Below are positions 2,940 to 45,274 of a stretch of 56,095 nt of DNA, one piece after another; position 1 is the first letter of the stretch, and each line of letters begins with the position of its first letter. This stretch comes from a virus: the IMG/VR virus record IMGVR_UViG_3300050035_000720, positions 1 through 56,095 of that record; one strand, 5' to 3'. Made by a program: the position numbers and the translations under genes. Below the pieces are notes generated by a model. It searched no databases. It saw nothing but the letters and a program-made list of their open reading frames with translations, and was not told the origin of the DNA.

Positions 2940-3274
2940 TCACCCGAGCCGATATTGTGCCTGGTCTGTTTTTTACGTCGAGCGACAACGATGACATTTG
3001 CAGGATTGTTCGCGTTTACGATATGCCGGACGGATGGTTTAAGCTCGGTTGTTCTTATTCAAAGACCAATTGGTGCGACACAGAAGGCTGCTGGACAGTT
3101 TCGTACCACATAGTTGAAGGCAAGATCATTGGACGCTGCTACCCGAGTTACACTCCCTATCACAACTCGAATATGCCCACTCCGGACGATATTCATTGTG
3201 ACCAGATTTGGATCGTCGAACCCGAGCCACACATGATCACCGCCCAACACGGGCAGTTAGGATTCGCATTATGA
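2936..3274 (+). CDS. Early operon protein, unknown
   Basis: A 112-residue protein starting at an ATG that overlaps the methyltransferase stop (ATGA). An upstream in-frame ATG at 2900 exists but lies inside the methyltransferase. It is rich in Cys, Trp and Tyr (GCSYSKTNWCDTEGCWTVSY), which suggests a compact beta fold, but no motif was recognised. Its stop again overlaps the next ATG. Confidence 0.65.
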   Translation: MITRADIVPGLFFTSSDNDDICRIVRVYDMPDGWFKLGCSYSKTNWCDTEGCWTVSYHIVEGKIIGRCYPSYTPYHNSNMPTPDDIHCDQIWIVEPEPHMITAQHGQLGFAL

Positions 3275-3648
3275 TTACAGAATTAGTCACCGACCCCGTC
3301 GCGCTGTCGGCTATGGACAAAGGGCAGCTTGCAGTACAGGTGCTAATAAGAAAGCACCCGAAGGTTTGCATCGAAAAGTGCATCCTGTTCACGAACGACT
3401 ACCTGAAGCATTACCTTAATAGCAAGGTGTTCGAATTGCTGGAGGAAATCAAAGTCTCGCCAAAGATTGCCTCTCTGTCTATTAACATCCATACAGGCTA
3501 TGGGCCTACAGATATAGTGGTGCACCAAGACTTGTCGTCCAGATGGTTCGACTGCGAACATGCTGACACAATCTGTTGCATTGCCATCGCATGGGCGCTT
3601 TGCCACGATGCCGGGCTGCTGCCGAAGCCGGAGGCCAGCAATGCCTGA
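3271..3648 (+). CDS. Early operon protein, unknown
   Basis: A 125-residue hypothetical protein. The ATG at 3271 overlaps the preceding TGA, so a longer form from 3208 is unlikely. It has a predicted alpha/beta pattern and a C-terminal hydrophobic stretch (TICCIAIAWALCHDAG) too short and polar-flanked to call a membrane segment. No family recognised. Confidence 0.65.
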   Translation: MITELVTDPVALSAMDKGQLAVQVLIRKHPKVCIEKCILFTNDYLKHYLNSKVFELLEEIKVSPKIASLSINIHTGYGPTDIVVHQDLSSRWFDCEHADTICCIAIAWALCHDAGLLPKPEASNA

Positions 3649-9367: not shown

Positions 9368-10399
9368 TTAATAACCTGTAAGATCAGCAGCCATCGCCAC
9401 CCACAGAGACTTAACAGCGTCATAAATGACCCTGACCATATGTGTTTTTGTCGCGACGGTGGTTACTGGTAATGTCACAGGACCATTGATGAAATTCGCG
9501 CCCCATGCAATCGCCTGAGCGGTCCCGTTATCGTGGATCCGGAACGTGTACTCCTGACCATCCGTCGGTGCCCCAGTCATACTGCTTGACATTGATGTTA
9601 TCGCCGTGGCAAGTGACGTGATGTTAAGCTGGTCACTTGCGGCAATATTGTAAGTCGGTGTTGCAGAGCTCACCACCGTAAGTATGCGCTTGTTTGATGT
9701 GAGTCCTGGCGGAAGGTCAGCATACACGAGTGCTGCCCAAAAAGGAGCCGTTGGTGAGCCCGACGCTGGCCCGCGAAGAAACGTATTTGCAACCTGTGGG
9801 TTAAAGGTGAGCGCAATTGTCCCGGAGGTCGTCACTGGGTCTCCAGTTTCAGCGAATGTAGAAGCAGGAGCGGTAACGCTAACACTCGTCACCGTGCCAG
9901 CGGCCCCACCAGGCGGCGTATTCCAGCTGCCATCTTCGCGCAGATACCGGGTAGTCCCTGCCGTGGCACCTGGATCCGGCACGATGCCAGCCGCATGAGA
10001 AGCGCCAGAAGCACCGAACACGACGCCAACAATTTGCAGTGTTTCGTCACCTCCAGGATTGGCGGTTGAGCTACTTAAACCTCCGGATGCGACAATCTTG
10101 CTAGATGCAAATCCAGGCGTAGAGTCCGACGAACTGTTCAAGAACTCGTAACTTGGGCTGGCCACCACGTTATTAGTGCTTACCGACTCCGAGGGGGTAC
10201 TCACACTGTTACTGGTCGTCGAGGTCGTCTTAGTTGAAGCTTGAGAGTTGACGGCCGCAAACTTCTGGAACGACTGTACATGATCGTACAGTTGCGCCTG
10301 TGTCATTCCGCGAGTACCCGCATAACTCGGTTTCGTTGGAGTTGCAGGCGACGTGCGAGTATTTGGCTTCCCTGTCGGTACGTTTGGATTACTTGCCAT
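9368..10399 (-). CDS. Tail fibre protein
   Basis: A 343-residue protein. About residues 150-240 contain the widespread fibre-shaft motif TRYLREDGSWNTPPG followed by GTVTSVSVTAPASTF and TSGTIALTFNPQVANTFLRG, seen in many phage fibres. Residues 45-115 are a low-complexity Ser/Thr linker. The C-terminal 100 residues look like a compact beta domain. Its start overlaps the stop of the giant polyvalent gene (TAATG), so the two are translationally coupled. Confidence 0.7.
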   Translation of the reverse strand: MASNPNVPTGKPNTRTSPATPTKPSYAGTRGMTQAQLYDHVQSFQKFAAVNSQASTKTTSTTSNSVSTPSESVSTNNVVASPSYEFLNSSSDSTPGFASSKIVASGGLSSSTANPGGDETLQIVGVVFGASGASHAAGIVPDPGATAGTTRYLREDGSWNTPPGGAAGTVTSVSVTAPASTFAETGDPVTTSGTIALTFNPQVANTFLRGPASGSPTAPFWAALVYADLPPGLTSNKRILTVVSSATPTYNIAASDQLNITSLATAITSMSSSMTGAPTDGQEYTFRIHDNGTAQAIAWGANFINGPVTLPVTTVATKTHMVRVIYDAVKSLWVAMAADLTGY

Positions 10400-13300
10400 T
10401 ATTTCGGCCTCGAAAGTTGTCCCATAATGCCCAGCCGATTAGCTAGCATTGCATCCGCCGGCGTCGCTTCTCGCGACCGGATAGCAGCGAGTACTCTTTG
10501 CATGATGAACGGCCTCCATGTCTGCCTGAGCTGCACTGGCTGCTGCTGATACGCCTGCAGTACTTGAGATATCGGCAGCGCATTGACCGCCTGTATCATT
10601 TGTGCTGGCTGCGGTGCCGTCCTCATTTCAGCATTTACCGCAGCAGGTGATGCCGATGCGTACGATGTGCCCTGACCTGGTGCGTTTCGGTCAATGATCG
10701 CCTGCTGTTCAGGTGTGAGTGCTATAGGTGATCGCTGCAGCTTCTGCTCAAGGTAAGGCTTCAATAACTGCTGATCCTGTGTCGACGCATTCTGATAGAA
10801 TGTCTGCTCTGCAGCAAGTGGTAATTCACGAAATTTCGTAACCACGGGGTTGCTGACTGCATCTCTAAGCGAATCTTCAATCTGCATTTTAGAGGCATGG
10901 CCAGACCGTATAAGTTGACCAGCTTCGGCGCTTACATCCTCACCTTTCTGATGCCGTTGAACGATGTCCTGTATTGTCGCATTCACGCCAGGCTGGATTA
11001 CTGCTTTATGCGCTGCAGCTGCAGTATCAGCGAGTCCCAGCCCTGTCATGTCTGTTGCCGGTTGAGTTAGCCCACGCGGCAGGAACGTATTGACAATGTT
11101 CTTTGCAAACTGCGCGGATCCGCTCATAGGCGACTGCCCTTTTGGTGTATAATCGGCATTTGAGCCATAACCTGCTTTTCCAAGTAATGCGCCGGCTACC
11201 GGGTTTGCGGTGGCAGCTACAGAAAGTGCACGATTTTCTACCTGGTTTGCGTAGCCTGGCTCTGAAGGTGGAAGAGTATGCTCGAATTGCGGCACGTTCT
11301 GTCCACTGCTTCGATCTCTAAGGCTGCTAAGGTACGGAGTAATGCCGCCTGCAGCTAGAATGTCATTCAGTAAAGGGCCGCTGGTAAACGGCTGAGAAAG
11401 TCCGTTGATCTGGCCGCGCAGCGCTTCTTCTCCCACCATTCCCGGTGTCGCGCCTTCCTGATAAGCATTGTAAGCATTGCGTACACCAAGGGCATTTAAT
11501 CCCCTCGAAACAGTCGGATTCATTATCGCAGTGCTTACTCCGGGTTCTTGACCTTTTTGAGCGTTCTCCAGTTTACCTATTACATCGGAGACTCCGGGGA
11601 ATGCCTTGCCGAGCCTCGTATCAGTTCCAACAGGAACAGTGAGAAACCGGCTCTTCTTATCATCAAACGGCAGATGTCCGGTCTGAATTGCGTATAGCGC
11701 CGCCCATGTTCCGATCAGTGCCACTGGCCCAGCGATAGCCTGCTCGAACATTTTATTAGCAACCTGGCGGCCAAGGGCAACACCCTTAGTAGGCAGCGTG
11801 TTTACATCCCAAAATCTGGTATTCGCTTCGATGCCCTGCTTCATAAACGTAGTGCCGGCCACTGCGAACGGATTACCAAGCGGATGCTTGACTAGTCCTC
11901 GCACAACAGAATTTTGCAACACTCGGTTGTATTGACCAACCGTGTCGGTTACATATTTGGCAAGTTGCGCCGCCATCTCCGGATCTTGGTATGAACCGTT
12001 TGGATTTGTCGGCAGCGGTGCGTCCGGATCCAGTCCGACCATAGCCTTAGCAGAGCGGTAGAGTGCAATGCGAGTCCGGACATCCATGCCTCTGTCTCCA
12101 AATAGCAGGAACTTCGGATTGGTCGCAAGCCTAGTATTGCCAACCGTTACGCCACTAACCGGCTTTGTGCCAAGTAGTTCAGCGACTTTGGGATCATTGG
12201 TCAGACTGCCGTATCTATCACTAAGAGCACCACTGCGGGCCATCTCCTGGAGTGCTACGGCGTTCCTGTCCGGATCGTTATTTGCGACCTGTGCAAATCG
12301 CTTAGCCATGTTCTGCACGCCGCACTCGCCCCCGAGGATGTGAACCAAGTTAGGCCCCGCAGATTTAATGAAACCATACGATAGGTTGAATACGTGCGCT
12401 ACTCCCGCCTGCGGAGCAGCTAGACTAATCGTTGTCGCGGCCCGGGAAAGAATGTTCTCCGGCGTGTCATCGTCACTGCCCCATCGCTCATAGTCATGCG
12501 TCAGGACCGGACCTGATTCTTTCTTCAGCCAGTTCGGAACATAGACCGATTTACCCTTAGTGCTAAACGGAACCCCATCAGCACCGACCTTGCGGCCGCC
12601 ATATTCAATGGCAGCAAGCGATGCCGGATACTTTACGCCGCCGACGTCGATAGTTGCCTGGTCGTGAGAGTTTCCGTACTGGTCCTTCTTGCTTACGGTA
12701 GTGATCCGCTGCATCTGAGCTTCGTCGCTCGGATCCACTGTTAGCCCGTCGTTTACGATACCGCGCACAAATGCAGCCTGGCTGTTTCGGCGAAGCAGTC
12801 CAGACACCTTGCTTGCCAATGCGCCGGGGGTGCTGTCGTATTGCTCAGCCTGGCCAGTGGCAAAACGGTTGTGAATATTCTCGGCTGGCTCCATAGCTGG
12901 TGATGGAGTGCCAACAGGTCTTAGTGAACCATCTTGCTTGAACACTGACAGTGGGTAGTAAGTCTTGAGCGGCCCGAGGTCCTGCGAGAAGACACCTTCA
13001 TTGCTAGCATGGCTTTCCGCGATGTGTGGCTCGATCCGATCTTTGTAGATCTGGAGCGCAGTCTTGAACTTTGGATCGTTTACGGTGTTATCGTAGTGCA
13101 GAGGATTCCCGAACATCGTCGGAACGTTCTTGGACGCTCGATTCATAGTACTGGCAACAAAGTTATTCAGGTGAGTTAGATCGCCGGTCTCATTGGCATA
13201 TTCGATCTGCGAATGCAGCTGAGCTGCGATATTACTCCATCTTCCGCCGCCACTGCCAAGTGCTTCAATTGGTTCTGCATACTTGTCGTCCAGCGCAACG

Positions 13301-16300
13301 ATCGTGCCCTTGTTGTCTCGCGTAACAAGATCCTCCGGATTAGCAGCTCGTGCATTGGCCGTAAGTGATTGCCACCGAGCACGTACACCGCGGAGTCTGC
13401 TTTCAGTCAGTACTTTTCCGAAGCGGTCTAGGTCTGCAGAGGTACCGAGTGCATGCACGACGTCGCCCATTGCATGCTTCATCAGCACGTTTGTCCTGGC
13501 AGTTACAGCACCCAGTTCCTGGAATCGGCTGGTGGTTTCCGGGGATGCATGCTTCTTCAGGTAACTGCCGGCAGCGTCAAAGGTATTTCGTACTGCCGGT
13601 TTGGCATTTCGCACTGCATTGGCTAGATCCTGCAGATTCGGTGTTCCAAACTTCCAGTTAAACATCGGAGACTTTGCTCCTGATCCACCGGCCATAACTG
13701 GTGAAGACGCGAGCGGGCTATCACTGGTCGGTTCTCCGGTGATAGACTCATGGCCTTTGCCGCCAAGCATATCATCAAAGAGAGTCTTCATCGTTGGATG
13801 AAGTTCTCCGGCGATTGGACTATCGATTGTATTCTTGTAGATATCTGTCAGCCAGCCCTTGAAGTTATCGAACACTTCCTGCAGCTGTGGGCGCGGAGCT
13901 TTCCCGTTGGCTAGATACGCCTCAAAGTCACGCGCGAAATTCTCTTCGTGGTCAGTCGTCCATTCGCCATTTTTAATGCCGTAGTAATCTTCAGCCCTGG
14001 CCAGCAGATCAGGTGTGAGCGACTTACGAAAGAAGTGTGCAAACTCGTGCGCCGCGGTAGATACGTCAGCTGATTGGTAAAGCTTTATGAGTGCTTGACC
14101 GTCTTTGCGAGACCACTGTATACTTCCCTTTTCACCATCAGGACCAAGTTGTGAGTACTTATTGCCTTTGATTGCGTCAATTATTTCTGACGGCCCAGCG
14201 CCTGCAGCAGGTTCCGAGCCTTTTTGAAATAGTGGCTTACCATCTTCTTGCAGATGATAGTAAGCGTAGTCCGCCAGCTTGCGGGCATTGACTTCGTTTG
14301 GGCTATTTCGGTAGGCGTTGTAATCACCGTTGTAAAGATGCTGTGCACCTTCGTCTGTCAACCTGCCCTTCTTATCCTGCAATGCGTGGGCGGCTTCGTG
14401 AAGGATAGTGTGAAGCGGCCCATGTTCATCCATATCATGCGCGGTGGTGATATCCTTCCAGTTATGATCATACAGGCCATAAGCACCGCGCAGTACTGGA
14501 TCTTCATTCGGAAGATTGGTAATACGGGTATTAAGAACATCCTTGAACAACTCCCTGATTTTAGGGCCCTTCAAGTAATCACCAAGTGTTCTGGGAGATT
14601 CTACATCTCCGAACTTCTTGGATGATGCCCAGTCCAGCGCCTCGGGGGTGAACTTGTCGGCGTAGTCATACGGCTTGTTGAATGGCGCACTCTGATGAAG
14701 AATGTTAGGATCGTTAGGATCGAAGTTACCATTATTACCGATAGCGGACTTGATCTGTGTGCCATTGAATGCTATAGCAACATTGTGCGGCTCGCCTCCT
14801 GTGATGCTTCCGCCAATATGGGTTATGCCGTCGTACCCAGCTTTTTCGAGCACTTCTCGTACATCCCATTTGTCTCCTAAGTGCCTACAGAGAACTTTAT
14901 ATAAGTCCTTGCCAGTACTTAACGGGCTGATATTATTATCGTAAAGTAAAGATTCTGGCAGGCCTTTTTCTTTGAGCGCTTTGACAATCGACTTGGCACC
15001 GTCCAGTCCGATGCTCTTGTCTATGTCGAATGGATTTTTAATGGAAAGGTGAACTGGATACACACCTTTTCCTTTTCCAAGCGCCTGTTTTATGTCGTTA
15101 GTGTTCTCATTATCGATTGAAACACCATAAGTTCTCGGCTTTTCACCTGCAATAGGCGATCCATCACGGTTAACCCTAACACCGGTAACATAGCCGGTTT
15201 TCGGATCATACCCTTTTACAATTTTATCGAATCCTCCATAGGATCTAACAATGCGTCCTTCAGAATAGTATGCCGCCTTATCTGCAGACGTGATTGATCC
15301 TTTGGTTGTTTCAGCATAACCAGATGCAGTCTTTGGGCTATCGGTGAAGTACGCACCGGAACCATAGAGTAGATGATTGTCTCCCGCGTAGTTTGTTGTA
15401 TCAAATTCTGAGTGCCTCGCGCCTCCAGTGCCGTGATACATAACCTTTGGTTGCTGCTGGTCGTCTACTATCCGAGACCTAAGGAACCATTTTTTAAATT
15501 GCGGAGTGTTGACTTGGCTAGGTTTTTGGAATAATTTCTCGTCAGATTGTGGTATATCTGGATTAGCGAGCGAACTACTCCGAGCGGAACCGTCATCGGT
15601 CGACGTATGCGCGACGCCCTCTGTTTTAGAGGTAGCACGTTGCTTCGGAGCGCTCGTGCCTTCATCGTATGCCTTAACAGTCGCAGTAAAAACTAGTTTT
15701 TTGCCTTCACTTACTCCTGTTACAATCTCAATACGCTTGCCTATTTGCTTTTTGAATACTATGGCAGGAACTGTGCCGCCTTGAACAGTATTCTTACCTT
15801 TTTCTATAGTGTCTGCATCTTTTATCACATCATATATATGTGTGAAATCTTCCCTGGTCATGTGCACACGGTTTTCTTCGTGTTCATCTTCTACACCCCT
15901 ATTGGGGCCACCCTTGTTCGAATGATGGACAGTGCTCGTATCAGCAACTAAAGTAGATCCTTCTGTTTCTAATCCGACGGCGCCCCTGATACGATTAGCA
16001 AGTTCGTGATCTACTATCGCTATAGGCATTTTTGCATTCTTCGAAGATACGCCACTCTTTCCTTTTTGCCCTACTGCCAGGTCGTAAAGCTTTCCAAGCC
16101 TGTCAGCAATATAGCCTCGCGGATCTTGTGACCATTCAGTAATTTGTTTAGGTATGAGGATGTTGCGAACATCCTGGCTAATAGGCATATTCAGACTTTC
16201 TCCATTCCTAATCCTATGGTTTCCCAGGGAATCGGTTATAAACGTTACGCCTCCAAGACCTGGGACATAATGATCTTCACCTTCGCCAAATGGTGACTTC

Positions 16301-19300
16301 TGGAACAGCGTTCCGCTAAATCCGCTATTCGGCTCCGCTGCTCCCACATTACTCCGAACATACACGCGAGTCTTGCCATCAGGTGAAACAATGGCAGTAA
16401 GGTGATGATCGCCGTCGACAAGGTTGTAGGTAATGTCTCCGTTCGCTCCGTGTAGCACTTGGCCATGACCATTGGCCGCAGCCTTCTCCATGTCGCTGAC
16501 GGTCATCTGTGCGCCGTAGTTGACCCACTTGCCGTTAATCTTTGCGCGAGCCGCATTCTTGACATTGCCAGAAGCTGACAGGGAGCCGTCTGACTGCCGT
16601 TCGGCGTTGCCGATTACATCCCTGATAGTTTGAGGAATACGCTCGTCAGACTGAAACGGATGAACTTCATCTTCAAATTGCAGCCTTCCTGTAACACCAT
16701 TGGGAATAGCCTTAGTATTGGCAGTAGGCTTTTCAGTTGGAGGCTGCAGGCGGAAATCTTCTACATTGTCATCGCCGAACAAAGACCCAGTCGGTGCACG
16801 TTGGAAGAGCTGGCCAGTTACGTGGTCTTCTTCTTCGGTTGGGATAACTGTTCCCGCTGTTCCCATCGCTCCGGCGGCTGACTGTGGGTGAATTGCTGCA
16901 CCTTCGCCAACAGGTTCGCCTGCTGCTGCAGTCGTTGCTGTATCTCCGGTTGTTCGCTGGCCAAGGGATCTGATGATGTCGGGTGCGGCTGTACGGAACT
17001 TGTTAAGGGCATCTTGTTTGACGACATTTGGCGACTCTCCTTTTCCTAGACGGCGTGAAGCTTCGTCTAGTATATCTGATACTGGACCAGACGAGTTCTT
17101 GGTTCGGTCGAATATCTCCTGAGCTTGATTAGTTTCATGAGCTTTCTGCGCACTTGTCTCTGCGTCGATCACGTTTTTGCCGGTAGCAAAGGCCTCGGCA
17201 TTCGCGGTGTTACCGGCGGTCTTTAATACATTTGCGGTTCGTCCGAGTTGTCTGCGAATATAATCAGCAACACTGGCTCGCTCAAAGAACAGGCTCTTGT
17301 CTGCAGGGGTTGCATCGTCGCCAAACATATTCGGCGTGGATACTCCCGCTGCACCCCTTGGAGCGCCTGCAATACTGTCGGCCATTTCGGATATTTGCCC
17401 GTTGGTCGGTTCCTTGCCTGACTTCTCCAAGTCGTCCATCCGACGGGTAAGCAAAAGCTGATCGTCCGGGTTCGGCAACTTACTGCCGATAATCGATGCA
17501 CGTTCTGCAGGAATCTCTCCGCGAACGACCTTGGAAAATATCGAAGGATGAAGCTGTGAAAGTGCAATGCCCTGTTCCGCTACTTTGCCCTTCAGAGGTA
17601 TGCCCTGGTCGGAGATTTCCTGCGGCGTCATCTTCGAGTCTCTAAAGAACTGCGCAGCGTCAACTGCCGTACCTTGGCCTTCAGCAATGTTTACCAGTGC
17701 GCCGTGGGCCCTGGCCTCGCCTGGAGTTGCAGCATCGAGATATTGAACATTGACATTCTTAACGCCAAGCCGATTAGCAAGCGCGAGACGATTATGCCCG
17801 TTGACTGCGTAGGTCTGTCCATCCGCTGGATCACGCCATACTTGCAGTGCGCCGGCGGAGTTGGGATTCCATGATTTTACACTAGAAAGCGATCCGGTCT
17901 GACCACCATGTCCTTTGATAATCTTGTACTGAAAACGATCAGGATCAACCTGGATCGAGGAAGTAGGCACATTAGCAAAAGCGGCAACTGGCTGTCCTGA
18001 TGCAACTTCATGTTTAGACGCAGTACTATCCGCAAACAGATCATCTGTCTGCGGCTGCGCTGCATGCTCCTTAACAGCATTGTTAATATTATCAACTAAC
18101 TGCTGGCCTTCCGTAGTCTTGGCTGTCAGTGTTTCGCCCGGCACGACACCTCGGAGATTAGCCTCCAGGTATTGAGATGGAGACTCGCCAGTTTTAGCAG
18201 CTCTAGTATTCAGGTAAGCGTCAACCAATGTAGAGACTGCACGCGCTCCATCCTGTGGTATCCCGGACTCAACAAGCGCGTTAGCAATATCGGCGGTCGA
18301 AGTGATCTGCACAGGCTTCCCATTCGACGCGGCGAATTTCGCGTGGCTGACCAATACTGAGTCCGGATTGCTGAAAGCGTCATCTAAATTGTTGGCGGCC
18401 GCCTGGGACGGCTCGAATGCGGATAGTGGGTCGTTAGTATGTTCCGCTGCGCTTGCTCCGAGAGCTGTATTGGATGCGGCTTGAGCTGCTTCCTTCGCAC
18501 TCTGAATACCTTGAGCCCTCTCTTTTGTCGCCTTCAACACACTGCCCAAAGAATTGATTGGCTTCGGGGCTTCGGGCACATTTGCCTTAGCTTCTGCTTC
18601 CTGCATGGCCGCAACACTGGACGTTTTCAATGGTGGTGCTGTCGTTTTTGAGATACCAAGTACTTGCTCAGTATTCTGCGTTAATTCATGTGATAGTTGC
18701 TGTGAGACACTTCCGTCAGCGTTCCGAACTGACTTATAGACTTCGACGCCTTCAGGTAAGGAGTGGATTCCGTTAAGCGGTGCTTTATACCAAGTCGGAT
18801 TAACGTGTATCGTTGTGGCCGACGATGCGATAGTGCTGTTCGGCAAGACGAGCGGCTTGTTGATAGGATCGGCTTCTGGTGCAACACCGCTCTCTGGCTC
18901 AATGGTTGTGCGTTCACCCTTCGTAGAAAATGCGCGTAGCAATTTGCCTTTCAGGTTAGGGATACCGCTGCTGGCTAGGAACTGTAGACGGTTATTAGTG
19001 TCGACCAGCAGTTGAGCCTTGGCAAGTGATTCGGTATCTCCGGCAGCACGTAGAGCGTTGATCTGTGCGTTGTTGGTAATGATTGTACGGTTTAATGCCG
19101 CCGGAGCATCCATGATACGAAGCGCAGCGCCCAACGCTGATCCGCCGACAACCATACCGGTATTTGCTAAAAATCCGGCAGGGTCCGCGCGGTACTCTTG
19201 ACCATACGTCCCATTGATAGATCTGCCACCGGCTTTTATTGCTTGGAGTACACCTGCGTCTGCAGACTGCCCTATTCTGCTGGTGGCATTGTAAAGCACA

Positions 19301-20178
19301 CCGCCAGGTTCGGCGCCAGCCAACGGAGCAACATCGCCCTTCAAGTGCGCCTGCGACAATTCGGGCGTGATATCCTGTGTCGGCAACTCCCCGCGCTGGG
19401 TACGGTAGATTGACTCAAGCCCCATCAATGCGTGAAGAACTCCGCCAGTCTCTATTGGCTTCTTTGTGGGTCCATTAAATGCGCCTGGATAAACAATTGA
19501 TTTGCCTCGCATAGCGGTGTCTATTGCATCAGACGTGATACTTCCAGCAAGGTTTAACGCACCCGTTCCCAATCCTTCAATTCCCTTCACTATCGGCGGC
19601 ACTGATGGTACATCCATCGTGTAGCCTGCGATTGTTTCGGGATGTGTAGATCCCGGCTTGAAATCGTTTATAATGTCAGTAGCGACTTCGCCAAATGAAG
19701 GTAAGCCCGCTGAGACATGGTGACCTGCTATCTTAGGCTGATGTACCTGTCTCACTTCGTTATTTACATTACTCTGGAACTGCGTAGCCATACGAGACGC
19801 TTCGCTATTGTTAGACGCCCACGGAATGCCGCCGCCTGCAGTACTGGGTGTCATTCCGTGCGGAGTGTTTCCCGCAATTGGATCGTTGCTATTGCTTCGG
19901 TACGGATTGTTATCGGCAATGATCTGGGACGGTGTGCGCTGCGGCGGTGCGCCAGACTGAACCGAATATCCTCTTTGATTTAGTTCAGTGTCTGTAAATG
20001 TCGGTGTAACAGGAGGCGGTGCTCCGCTCTTCACCAAAAGGCCAAGTTTCGCAAAATCAGCATCACTCATCCCGGATGTTGCCTGAGGTTGCGACTGCGG
20101 AGGGGCACCGTCCCTCACTGTATAGCCTTTTGACTGAAGCAACTCGTCGTTGATTGTTATTGGTCCAGTAGTTGACAT
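10399..20178 (-). CDS. Giant polyvalent protein (ParB-like, MuF-C-like nuclease, ART and two metallopeptidase modules)
   Basis: A 3259-residue multidomain protein of the polyvalent type, which phages are thought to package and inject to disarm the host. Visible parts: three GAPP repeats near the N-terminus (residues 24, 52, 76); a ParB/sulfiredoxin-like domain around NGHNR at 793-797; a MuF-C/PBECR-like nuclease candidate around H1418-H1419 (STVHH); an ADP-ribosyltransferase beginning VMYHGTGG (H1582) with GSGAYFTDS; and two zincin metallopeptidases, HEAAH at 1927-1931 and HEFAH at 2044-2048. LFQ-type tripeptides at 1124, 1291, 1549, 1827 (LHQ) and 1983 separate the modules. The C-terminal third has large helical, partly hydrophobic regions suited to membrane or DNA translocation. 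Module boundaries and activities are inferred by motif only. Confidence 0.85.
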   Translation of the reverse strand: MSTTGPITINDELLQSKGYTVRDGAPPQSQPQATSGMSDADFAKLGLLVKSGAPPPVTPTFTDTELNQRGYSVQSGAPPQRTPSQIIADNNPYRSNSNDPIAGNTPHGMTPSTAGGGIPWASNNSEASRMATQFQSNVNNEVRQVHQPKIAGHHVSAGLPSFGEVATDIINDFKPGSTHPETIAGYTMDVPSVPPIVKGIEGLGTGALNLAGSITSDAIDTAMRGKSIVYPGAFNGPTKKPIETGGVLHALMGLESIYRTQRGELPTQDITPELSQAHLKGDVAPLAGAEPGGVLYNATSRIGQSADAGVLQAIKAGGRSINGTYGQEYRADPAGFLANTGMVVGGSALGAALRIMDAPAALNRTIITNNAQINALRAAGDTESLAKAQLLVDTNNRLQFLASSGIPNLKGKLLRAFSTKGERTTIEPESGVAPEADPINKPLVLPNSTIASSATTIHVNPTWYKAPLNGIHSLPEGVEVYKSVRNADGSVSQQLSHELTQNTEQVLGISKTTAPPLKTSSVAAMQEAEAKANVPEAPKPINSLGSVLKATKERAQGIQSAKEAAQAASNTALGASAAEHTNDPLSAFEPSQAAANNLDDAFSNPDSVLVSHAKFAASNGKPVQITSTADIANALVESGIPQDGARAVSTLVDAYLNTRAAKTGESPSQYLEANLRGVVPGETLTAKTTEGQQLVDNINNAVKEHAAQPQTDDLFADSTASKHEVASGQPVAAFANVPTSSIQVDPDRFQYKIIKGHGGQTGSLSSVKSWNPNSAGALQVWRDPADGQTYAVNGHNRLALANRLGVKNVNVQYLDAATPGEARAHGALVNIAEGQGTAVDAAQFFRDSKMTPQEISDQGIPLKGKVAEQGIALSQLHPSIFSKVVRGEIPAERASIIGSKLPNPDDQLLLTRRMDDLEKSGKEPTNGQISEMADSIAGAPRGAAGVSTPNMFGDDATPADKSLFFERASVADYIRRQLGRTANVLKTAGNTANAEAFATGKNVIDAETSAQKAHETNQAQEIFDRTKNSSGPVSDILDEASRRLGKGESPNVVKQDALNKFRTAAPDIIRSLGQRTTGDTATTAAAGEPVGEGAAIHPQSAAGAMGTAGTVIPTEEEDHVTGQLFQRAPTGSLFGDDNVEDFRLQPPTEKPTANTKAIPNGVTGRLQFEDEVHPFQSDERIPQTIRDVIGNAERQSDGSLSASGNVKNAARAKINGKWVNYGAQMTVSDMEKAAANGHGQVLHGANGDITYNLVDGDHHLTAIVSPDGKTRVYVRSNVGAAEPNSGFSGTLFQKSPFGEGEDHYVPGLGGVTFITDSLGNHRIRNGESLNMPISQDVRNILIPKQITEWSQDPRGYIADRLGKLYDLAVGQKGKSGVSSKNAKMPIAIVDHELANRIRGAVGLETEGSTLVADTSTVHHSNKGGPNRGVEDEHEENRVHMTREDFTHIYDVIKDADTIEKGKNTVQGGTVPAIVFKKQIGKRIEIVTGVSEGKKLVFTATVKAYDEGTSAPKQRATSKTEGVAHTSTDDGSARSSSLANPDIPQSDEKLFQKPSQVNTPQFKKWFLRSRIVDDQQQPKVMYHGTGGARHSEFDTTNYAGDNHLLYGSGAYFTDSPKTASGYAETTKGSITSADKAAYYSEGRIVRSYGGFDKIVKGYDPKTGYVTGVRVNRDGSPIAGEKPRTYGVSIDNENTNDIKQALGKGKGVYPVHLSIKNPFDIDKSIGLDGAKSIVKALKEKGLPESLLYDNNISPLSTGKDLYKVLCRHLGDKWDVREVLEKAGYDGITHIGGSITGGEPHNVAIAFNGTQIKSAIGNNGNFDPNDPNILHQSAPFNKPYDYADKFTPEALDWASSKKFGDVESPRTLGDYLKGPKIRELFKDVLNTRITNLPNEDPVLRGAYGLYDHNWKDITTAHDMDEHGPLHTILHEAAHALQDKKGRLTDEGAQHLYNGDYNAYRNSPNEVNARKLADYAYYHLQEDGKPLFQKGSEPAAGAGPSEIIDAIKGNKYSQLGPDGEKGSIQWSRKDGQALIKLYQSADVSTAAHEFAHFFRKSLTPDLLARAEDYYGIKNGEWTTDHEENFARDFEAYLANGKAPRPQLQEVFDNFKGWLTDIYKNTIDSPIAGELHPTMKTLFDDMLGGKGHESITGEPTSDSPLASSPVMAGGSGAKSPMFNWKFGTPNLQDLANAVRNAKPAVRNTFDAAGSYLKKHASPETTSRFQELGAVTARTNVLMKHAMGDVVHALGTSADLDRFGKVLTESRLRGVRARWQSLTANARAANPEDLVTRDNKGTIVALDDKYAEPIEALGSGGGRWSNIAAQLHSQIEYANETGDLTHLNNFVASTMNRASKNVPTMFGNPLHYDNTVNDPKFKTALQIYKDRIEPHIAESHASNEGVFSQDLGPLKTYYPLSVFKQDGSLRPVGTPSPAMEPAENIHNRFATGQAEQYDSTPGALASKVSGLLRRNSQAAFVRGIVNDGLTVDPSDEAQMQRITTVSKKDQYGNSHDQATIDVGGVKYPASLAAIEYGGRKVGADGVPFSTKGKSVYVPNWLKKESGPVLTHDYERWGSDDDTPENILSRAATTISLAAPQAGVAHVFNLSYGFIKSAGPNLVHILGGECGVQNMAKRFAQVANNDPDRNAVALQEMARSGALSDRYGSLTNDPKVAELLGTKPVSGVTVGNTRLATNPKFLLFGDRGMDVRTRIALYRSAKAMVGLDPDAPLPTNPNGSYQDPEMAAQLAKYVTDTVGQYNRVLQNSVVRGLVKHPLGNPFAVAGTTFMKQGIEANTRFWDVNTLPTKGVALGRQVANKMFEQAIAGPVALIGTWAALYAIQTGHLPFDDKKSRFLTVPVGTDTRLGKAFPGVSDVIGKLENAQKGQEPGVSTAIMNPTVSRGLNALGVRNAYNAYQEGATPGMVGEEALRGQINGLSQPFTSGPLLNDILAAGGITPYLSSLRDRSSGQNVPQFEHTLPPSEPGYANQVENRALSVAATANPVAGALLGKAGYGSNADYTPKGQSPMSGSAQFAKNIVNTFLPRGLTQPATDMTGLGLADTAAAAHKAVIQPGVNATIQDIVQRHQKGEDVSAEAGQLIRSGHASKMQIEDSLRDAVSNPVVTKFRELPLAAEQTFYQNASTQDQQLLKPYLEQKLQRSPIALTPEQQAIIDRNAPGQGTSYASASPAAVNAEMRTAPQPAQMIQAVNALPISQVLQAYQQQPVQLRQTWRPFIMQRVLAAIRSREATPADAMLANRLGIMGQLSRPK

Positions 20179-45136: not shown

Positions 45137-45148
45137 GTGGTAAAATTA
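45137..45148 (+). promoter_or_regulatory. Extended -10 promoter of permuted tRNA-like gene
   Basis: TGGTAAAAT (TAAAAT at 45141-45146) is almost identical to the ncRNA promoter at 5764-5775. It would begin transcription near 45152, within a few bases of the 3'-half anticodon stem, so the RNA would need little 5' trimming. Confidence 0.5.
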
Positions 45149-45154
45149 GCACAT

Positions 45155-45223
45155 ACGGAGATCTGGTTCAAATCCAGCGTTTGGGCCTAGCCCGGGCGTA
45201 GTTCAACATGGTAGAGCATTCGT
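45155..45223 (+). tRNA. Circularly permuted tRNA-like gene (possibly Pro, anticodon GGG)
   Basis: Pieces in order: ACGGA (45155-45159, 3' anticodon stem); CTGG-TTCAAAT-CCAG (45163-45177, T-arm with canonical TTCAAAT loop, 4-bp stem); CGTTTGGGC (45178-45186, 3' acceptor strand); linker CTA; GCCCGGGCG (45190-45198, 5' acceptor strand, pairs with the former over 9 positions with three G-U); TA; GTTC-AACATGGTA-GAGC (45201-45217, canonical D-arm); TTCGT (45219-45223, pairs with ACGGA). All tRNA elements are present but the 3' half precedes the 5' half. The following bases TTGGGA suggest a GGG anticodon, and the C1-G72 closing pair fits proline. No CCA is encoded, and the variable loop is only 2-3 bases. 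Order and pairing are seen; charging or decoding is not shown. Confidence 0.6.
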
Positions 45224-45274
45224 TGGGAGATTACGGTAATTTGGCCAATTACTTAGGGTCTCCCAGGCCCTTTT
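45224..45274 (+). terminator. Plus-strand terminator hairpin after tRNA-like gene
   Basis: TGGGAGA (45224-45230) pairs with TCTCCCA (45259-45265), enclosing a second 6-bp stem GTAATT/AATTAC. GGCCCTTTT follows. It abuts the presumed anticodon stem, so the unit is only about 120 bases long. Confidence 0.6.

Follow-up and report, generated by a model that had tools for sequence, protein, structure and literature searches.

The window, by which we mean the whole stretch of 56,095 nucleotides analysed here (1-56095), carries a phage of temperate type from a little-known lineage, with an integrase gene at 1-1140, a D12 adenine methylase gene at 1974-2939, a 3259-residue frame at 10399-20178, RecT and YqaJ recombination genes and a D5 primase; its terminase is at most 59% identical to anything found. 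On the + strand, at 45155-45223, lies a short element whose arms follow one another in the order of a circularly permuted tRNA. It begins with ACGGA (45155-45159), the 5′ half of a basal stem and the equivalent of the 3′ strand of an anticodon stem, followed by a T-arm mimic, CTGG-TTCAAAT-CCAG (45163-45177), with a stem of 4 bp and a broken fifth pair (T-C). The acceptor-stem mimic, CGTTTGGGC-CTA-GCCCGGGCG (45178-45198), is a 9-bp hairpin with a CTA triloop, and three of its pairs are G-U. The dinucleotide TA (45199-45200) separates this hairpin from a canonical D-arm mimic, GTTC-AACATGGTA-GAGC (45201-45217), which has a 4-bp D-stem, and TTCGT (45219-45223) completes the basal stem by pairing with ACGGA. 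The T-arm, acceptor strands, D-arm and half-stems listed in the first-pass annotation are therefore present where it had placed them, and the permuted tRNA-like architecture that it described was correct, as all arms and the basal stem were found in permuted order.

Several features distinguish the module from a tRNA. It has no CCA, its acceptor end being closed by the CTA triloop, and its termini form no 7-nt anticodon loop, nor is a readable anticodon loop found there. The variable region measures 2-3 nt. Compared with the other modules, where 5 nt lead to the basal stem, the window module has a shorter linker. At the element, ARAGORN gave no match and Rfam at gathering thresholds matched no family. 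The target fold (-38.6 kcal/mol) and the free fold (-39.0) are nearly equal in stability; the free fold retains the hairpin and the basal stem and pairs the T and D strands differently, and the fold energy by itself is unexceptional (z -1.5).

At a lax Rfam threshold, RF02553 (YrlA, a bacterial Y RNA) was the sole family at the element (45142-45246). The alignment spans all 114 model positions in identical arm order and scores 15.9 bits, short of the gathering threshold of 69 bits. Its middle comprises the T-arm, the GGGCCUAGCCC hairpin, on which the RF02553 consensus and the window agree, and the UAG-UCA...UGGUAGA-C D-arm. YrlA and the window RNA thus share, in the same order, the parts by which a YrlA module is recognised, namely the T-arm, the closed GGGCCUAGCCC acceptor hairpin, the D-arm and the basal stem, and with them the permuted tRNA shape. 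A topology-independent comparison of RNA structures superposed a bacterial Y RNA, in its crystal structure 6CU1, on tRNAs through a circular permutation (PMC11472068). Taken with the arm order of YrlA, this superposition indicates that "permuted tRNA" describes a shape already known, namely that of the tRNA-mimic module in Y RNAs.

We aligned 24 phage and bacterial modules with the window left out (alignment A2) and built a model, R1, from this alignment. R1 matched the window once, end to end, at 45153-45224 (+; 30.1 bits), which delimits the entire YrlA-type module, and the T-arm and D-arm mimics align to R1 as they do to RF02553. Since R1 also scores ordinary tRNAs at 20-43 bits, some of them at junctions of neighbouring tRNA genes, its E-values overstate specificity and the argument rests on the permuted arm order. 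Within A2 the proportion of paired cells is 91%; two-sided changes number 142, and the covariation score reaches 0.75, compared to 0.18 in shuffles. These figures are inflated, since modules were selected in part for their ability to form the hairpin and the D-stem; the basal stem, which played no role in the selection, displays two-sided changes at all four of its pairs. Searches for close relatives by DNA, RusA, terminase, helicase and integrase yielded no syntenic RNA, the terminase relative (L170) ending before the RNA region. Judged from its sequence, the element is a real, YrlA-type tRNA-mimic module.

Sequence inspection upstream of the module revealed a putative extended -10, TGGTAAAAT (45138-45146, +), with no clear -35, from which the RNA start would fall at about 45153, at the foot of the basal stem. 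Downstream, at 45224-45274 (+), a stable hairpin (45224-45265) is followed by a short T tract with four T at 45271-45274, together probably forming a weak intrinsic terminator. Candidates for the promoter and terminator attributed to this gene do exist, but they are weaker than claimed, as a consensus promoter and terminator scan reported neither the TGGTAAAAT -10 nor the 3′ terminator, the T tract falling below the rule of the scan.

RNAs of the module type are common in phages and often lie beside Ro60. A first broad CTA pattern matched mostly tandem tRNA genes with very short spacers and was for this reason tightened to CCTAG; besides such tandem-tRNA artefacts, pattern scans of viral contigs returned more than 20 RNAs of the module type. 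Several of the phage modules were found by Rfam YrlA at 27-43 bits, all below the gathering score, and TROVE (Ro60) is encoded in 14 of the 26 phage records that bear the module. In Microbacterium phage FuzzBuster the module stands just before a gene annotated "Ro-like RNA binding protein", and in Vibrio phage BONAISHI just before an "RNA binding protein" gene; the matching sequence of Mycobacterium phage Myrna is part of a tRNA array and shares positions with tRNAs annotated there. The collection of prokaryote genomes matched the window-derived pattern at one place only, a Bacteriovoracaceae contig in which the module sits between RtcB-like and Ro60-like frames, names given from reading the translations rather than from a domain search. 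Phage Y RNAs were already known (Chen 2014; Sim and Wolin 2018; both as cited in passages of PMC12282133 and PMC7765460).

We made some additional observations on these loci. The RtcB-like and Ro60-like frames of the Bacteriovoracaceae contig (L212; 3237-4493 and 1806-3017, respectively) flank two Y-RNA-like elements, at about 3127-3266 and 3275-3344, the second being a stem that lacks the tRNA module and bears a weak, sub-threshold likeness to RF01656 (nematode sRNA; 23.3 bits). The Myrna stretch (L228, 1201-1350) is 93% identical to the Y RNA region of Mycobacterium phage Phabba and overlaps an annotated tRNA-Val and tRNA-Asp, of which the tRNA-Asp annotation may be a misread Y RNA module. 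In L065, L021 and L089, several YrlA-type modules, more than one per phage, lie in or near phage tRNA arrays.

The tRNA-mimic module is common to the window and to the phage Y RNAs of Phabba, Myrna, FuzzBuster and BONAISHI. However, the phage Y RNAs that we inspected have an extended stem and often precede a Ro-like gene, while the window RNA stands alone. The long end-to-end stem of the other phage RNAs is accompanied by 5′ motifs such as GGTTATC, GGATACTTC or CAGCAA, and motifs of this type were not found upstream of the window module. By inspection of sequence and energy we recognised no Ro-binding stem built from the ends of the window RNA, in contrast to YrlA. The TROVE domain (PF05731) is absent from the 56-kb record, which may be incomplete, and RtcB is represented in it by an unconvincing, sub-threshold match of 13.5 bits.

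These features bear on the possibility, in our view rather unlikely, that the RNA is a divergent but complete Y RNA whose short AU stem docks onto a host Ro60 protein and which acts in the manner of the Rsr-Y RNA-PNPase complex. This reading is consistent with the Rfam alignment, which covers the full model and uses the flanks at the AU stem, and with the 12 of 26 other module-bearing phage records that also lack TROVE, at least within the record. But the sole candidate for a Ro stem, AAATTA (45143-45148) with TAATTT (45237-45242), amounts to six A-U pairs that coincide in part with the only -10-like sequence, and the much stabler 3′ hairpin competes with it; nor does the window RNA have the 5′ motifs seen in its phage counterparts. 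Pairing of the flanks was not above that of shuffles (z -1.5) in a crude duplex-energy test in which many true Y RNAs also score poorly; because the test is weak in general, the absence of a Ro stem is to be taken as a finding of inspection and not as a measured fact.

A similarly bare module was found on the - strand of a second phage record (L213, 1501-1566; 30.6 bits with R1, 18.1 bits with Rfam YrlA). The two phages are distantly related, with terminases 34% identical, and TROVE was not found in the L213 record. The 9-mer GGTAAAATT is common to both, standing 5 nt before the basal stem in L213 and 7 nt before it in the window, a spacing by which transcription would start at the stem foot in each. 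This shared promoter-like layout is suggestive, coming from two cases in one of which (L213) the acceptor hairpin is short. A promoter-anchored scan for bare modules returned L213 again, tRNAs, one ordinary Y RNA-like element (L222) and noise.

The existence of this second case argues against a functionless remnant, decaying after the loss of the Ro stem and the Ro60 gene. The mismatch in the T-stem, the short linker and the three G-U pairs of the acceptor mimic would all fit such decay, as would the missing homologue in the nearer relatives searched; nonetheless, all four helices can still form and the promoter-like and terminator-like elements fit the ends of the module, and we judge a remnant to be improbable.

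That two tRNA remnants came to lie side by side by chance, or that the element is a fragment of an attachment site, is very improbable. Short-spaced tandem tRNA genes did dominate our broadest scan, yet here a 9-bp pairing spans the junction and its CTA loop is typical of the family, in agreement with the earlier view that two unrelated tRNA fragments are disfavoured. We defined a loose module as a T-arm, a hairpin next to it with 7 or more positions, of which one may be mismatched, and a D-arm starting TAGYT; the window has one such module, and a set of 6358 first-order random windows gave 7 (about 1 per 900), so that with an expectation of about 0.001 per random window a chance origin is unlikely. 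The position of the integrase gene, at the opposite end (1-1140), led us to reject an attP remnant. A permuted two-piece tmRNA, which likewise places its 3′ part before its 5′ part, was also rejected: the window RNA differs in its canonical 4-bp D-stem, and no tmRNA match was obtained in the window with ARAGORN, which alone sought a tag frame, or with Rfam.

Hardest to credit is a genuine tRNA gene, circularly permuted or split, whose pieces are joined into a working tRNA by some unknown route. This proposal of the first-pass annotation agrees with the arm order and pairing and otherwise found no support, given the triloop-closed, CCA-less acceptor, the missing anticodon loop, the 2-3 nt variable region and the fact that Y RNA modules normally have the same closed form. 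Algae and archaea also have tRNA genes with circularly permuted parts, but the products of these genes are spliced into working tRNAs and depend on the tRNA splicing endonuclease, an enzyme that is not known in bacteria. As the closed acceptor hairpin is the normal finished form of the YrlA module, which the first-pass annotation did not take into account, the window RNA requires no splicing or ligation.

The explanation that we favour, with moderate confidence, is a stand-alone YrlA-type tRNA mimic, devoid of a recognisable Ro stem or Ro60 gene, that occupies tRNA-binding proteins. A small non-coding RNA gene would extend over approximately 45153-45274 (+) with the YrlA-type module as its core; judging from the anatomy, transcription would proceed from the TAAAAT promoter, beginning at about 45153, and end at about 45274 at the hairpin 45224-45265. 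The RNA is predicted to adopt the L-like shape of a tRNA, its acceptor end being permanently closed, and because of this closure the mimic could not be charged; presumably it would not be translated either. Proteins that recognise the tRNA elbow would be occupied, our guesses being a host anticodon nuclease, PNPase or a tRNA-modifying enzyme, and the phage would be expected to benefit from their occupation. There are two precedents, one being a published proposal that the YrlA module may inhibit an anticodon nuclease by competition (PMC7790460), the other the Rsr-Y RNA complexes with PNPase (PMC7790460, PMC8058203). With no recognised Ro stem on the window RNA, the simplest model to work with is one in which it acts as a decoy or binds its target directly, and "tRNA mimic or decoy", one of the options raised earlier, is in line with the tRNA-mimic module of YrlA. 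More tentatively, and with considerable doubt, phages may have excised the module from Y RNAs and employ it by itself, without Ro60, as a transcribed decoy for, or inhibitor of, host proteins that recognise tRNA, for example defence anticodon nucleases, in which case the window and L213 would represent a Ro-independent class.

What is novel is the apparently Ro-independent, stand-alone module, the Y RNA module itself being already known in phages. A testable reading takes over from the startling claim of a permuted tRNA gene in a phage, and the analysis indicates that Y RNA tRNA-mimic modules, sometimes located within phage tRNA arrays, are liable to be taken for tRNAs and may occur in the absence of Ro60. 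Should a bare module prove functional by itself, it would provide a minimal setting in which to ask what the YrlA module binds, and it could show whether phages counter tRNA-cutting defences with this module.

Divergent from the tRNA mimic, the sequence suggests a second small RNA on the - strand (window 45101-44970), with a promoter-like TTGACG-17-TAGCAT and a TG before the -10 at 45101-45073; at 45001-44970 there is a strong terminator with a run of eight T behind it.
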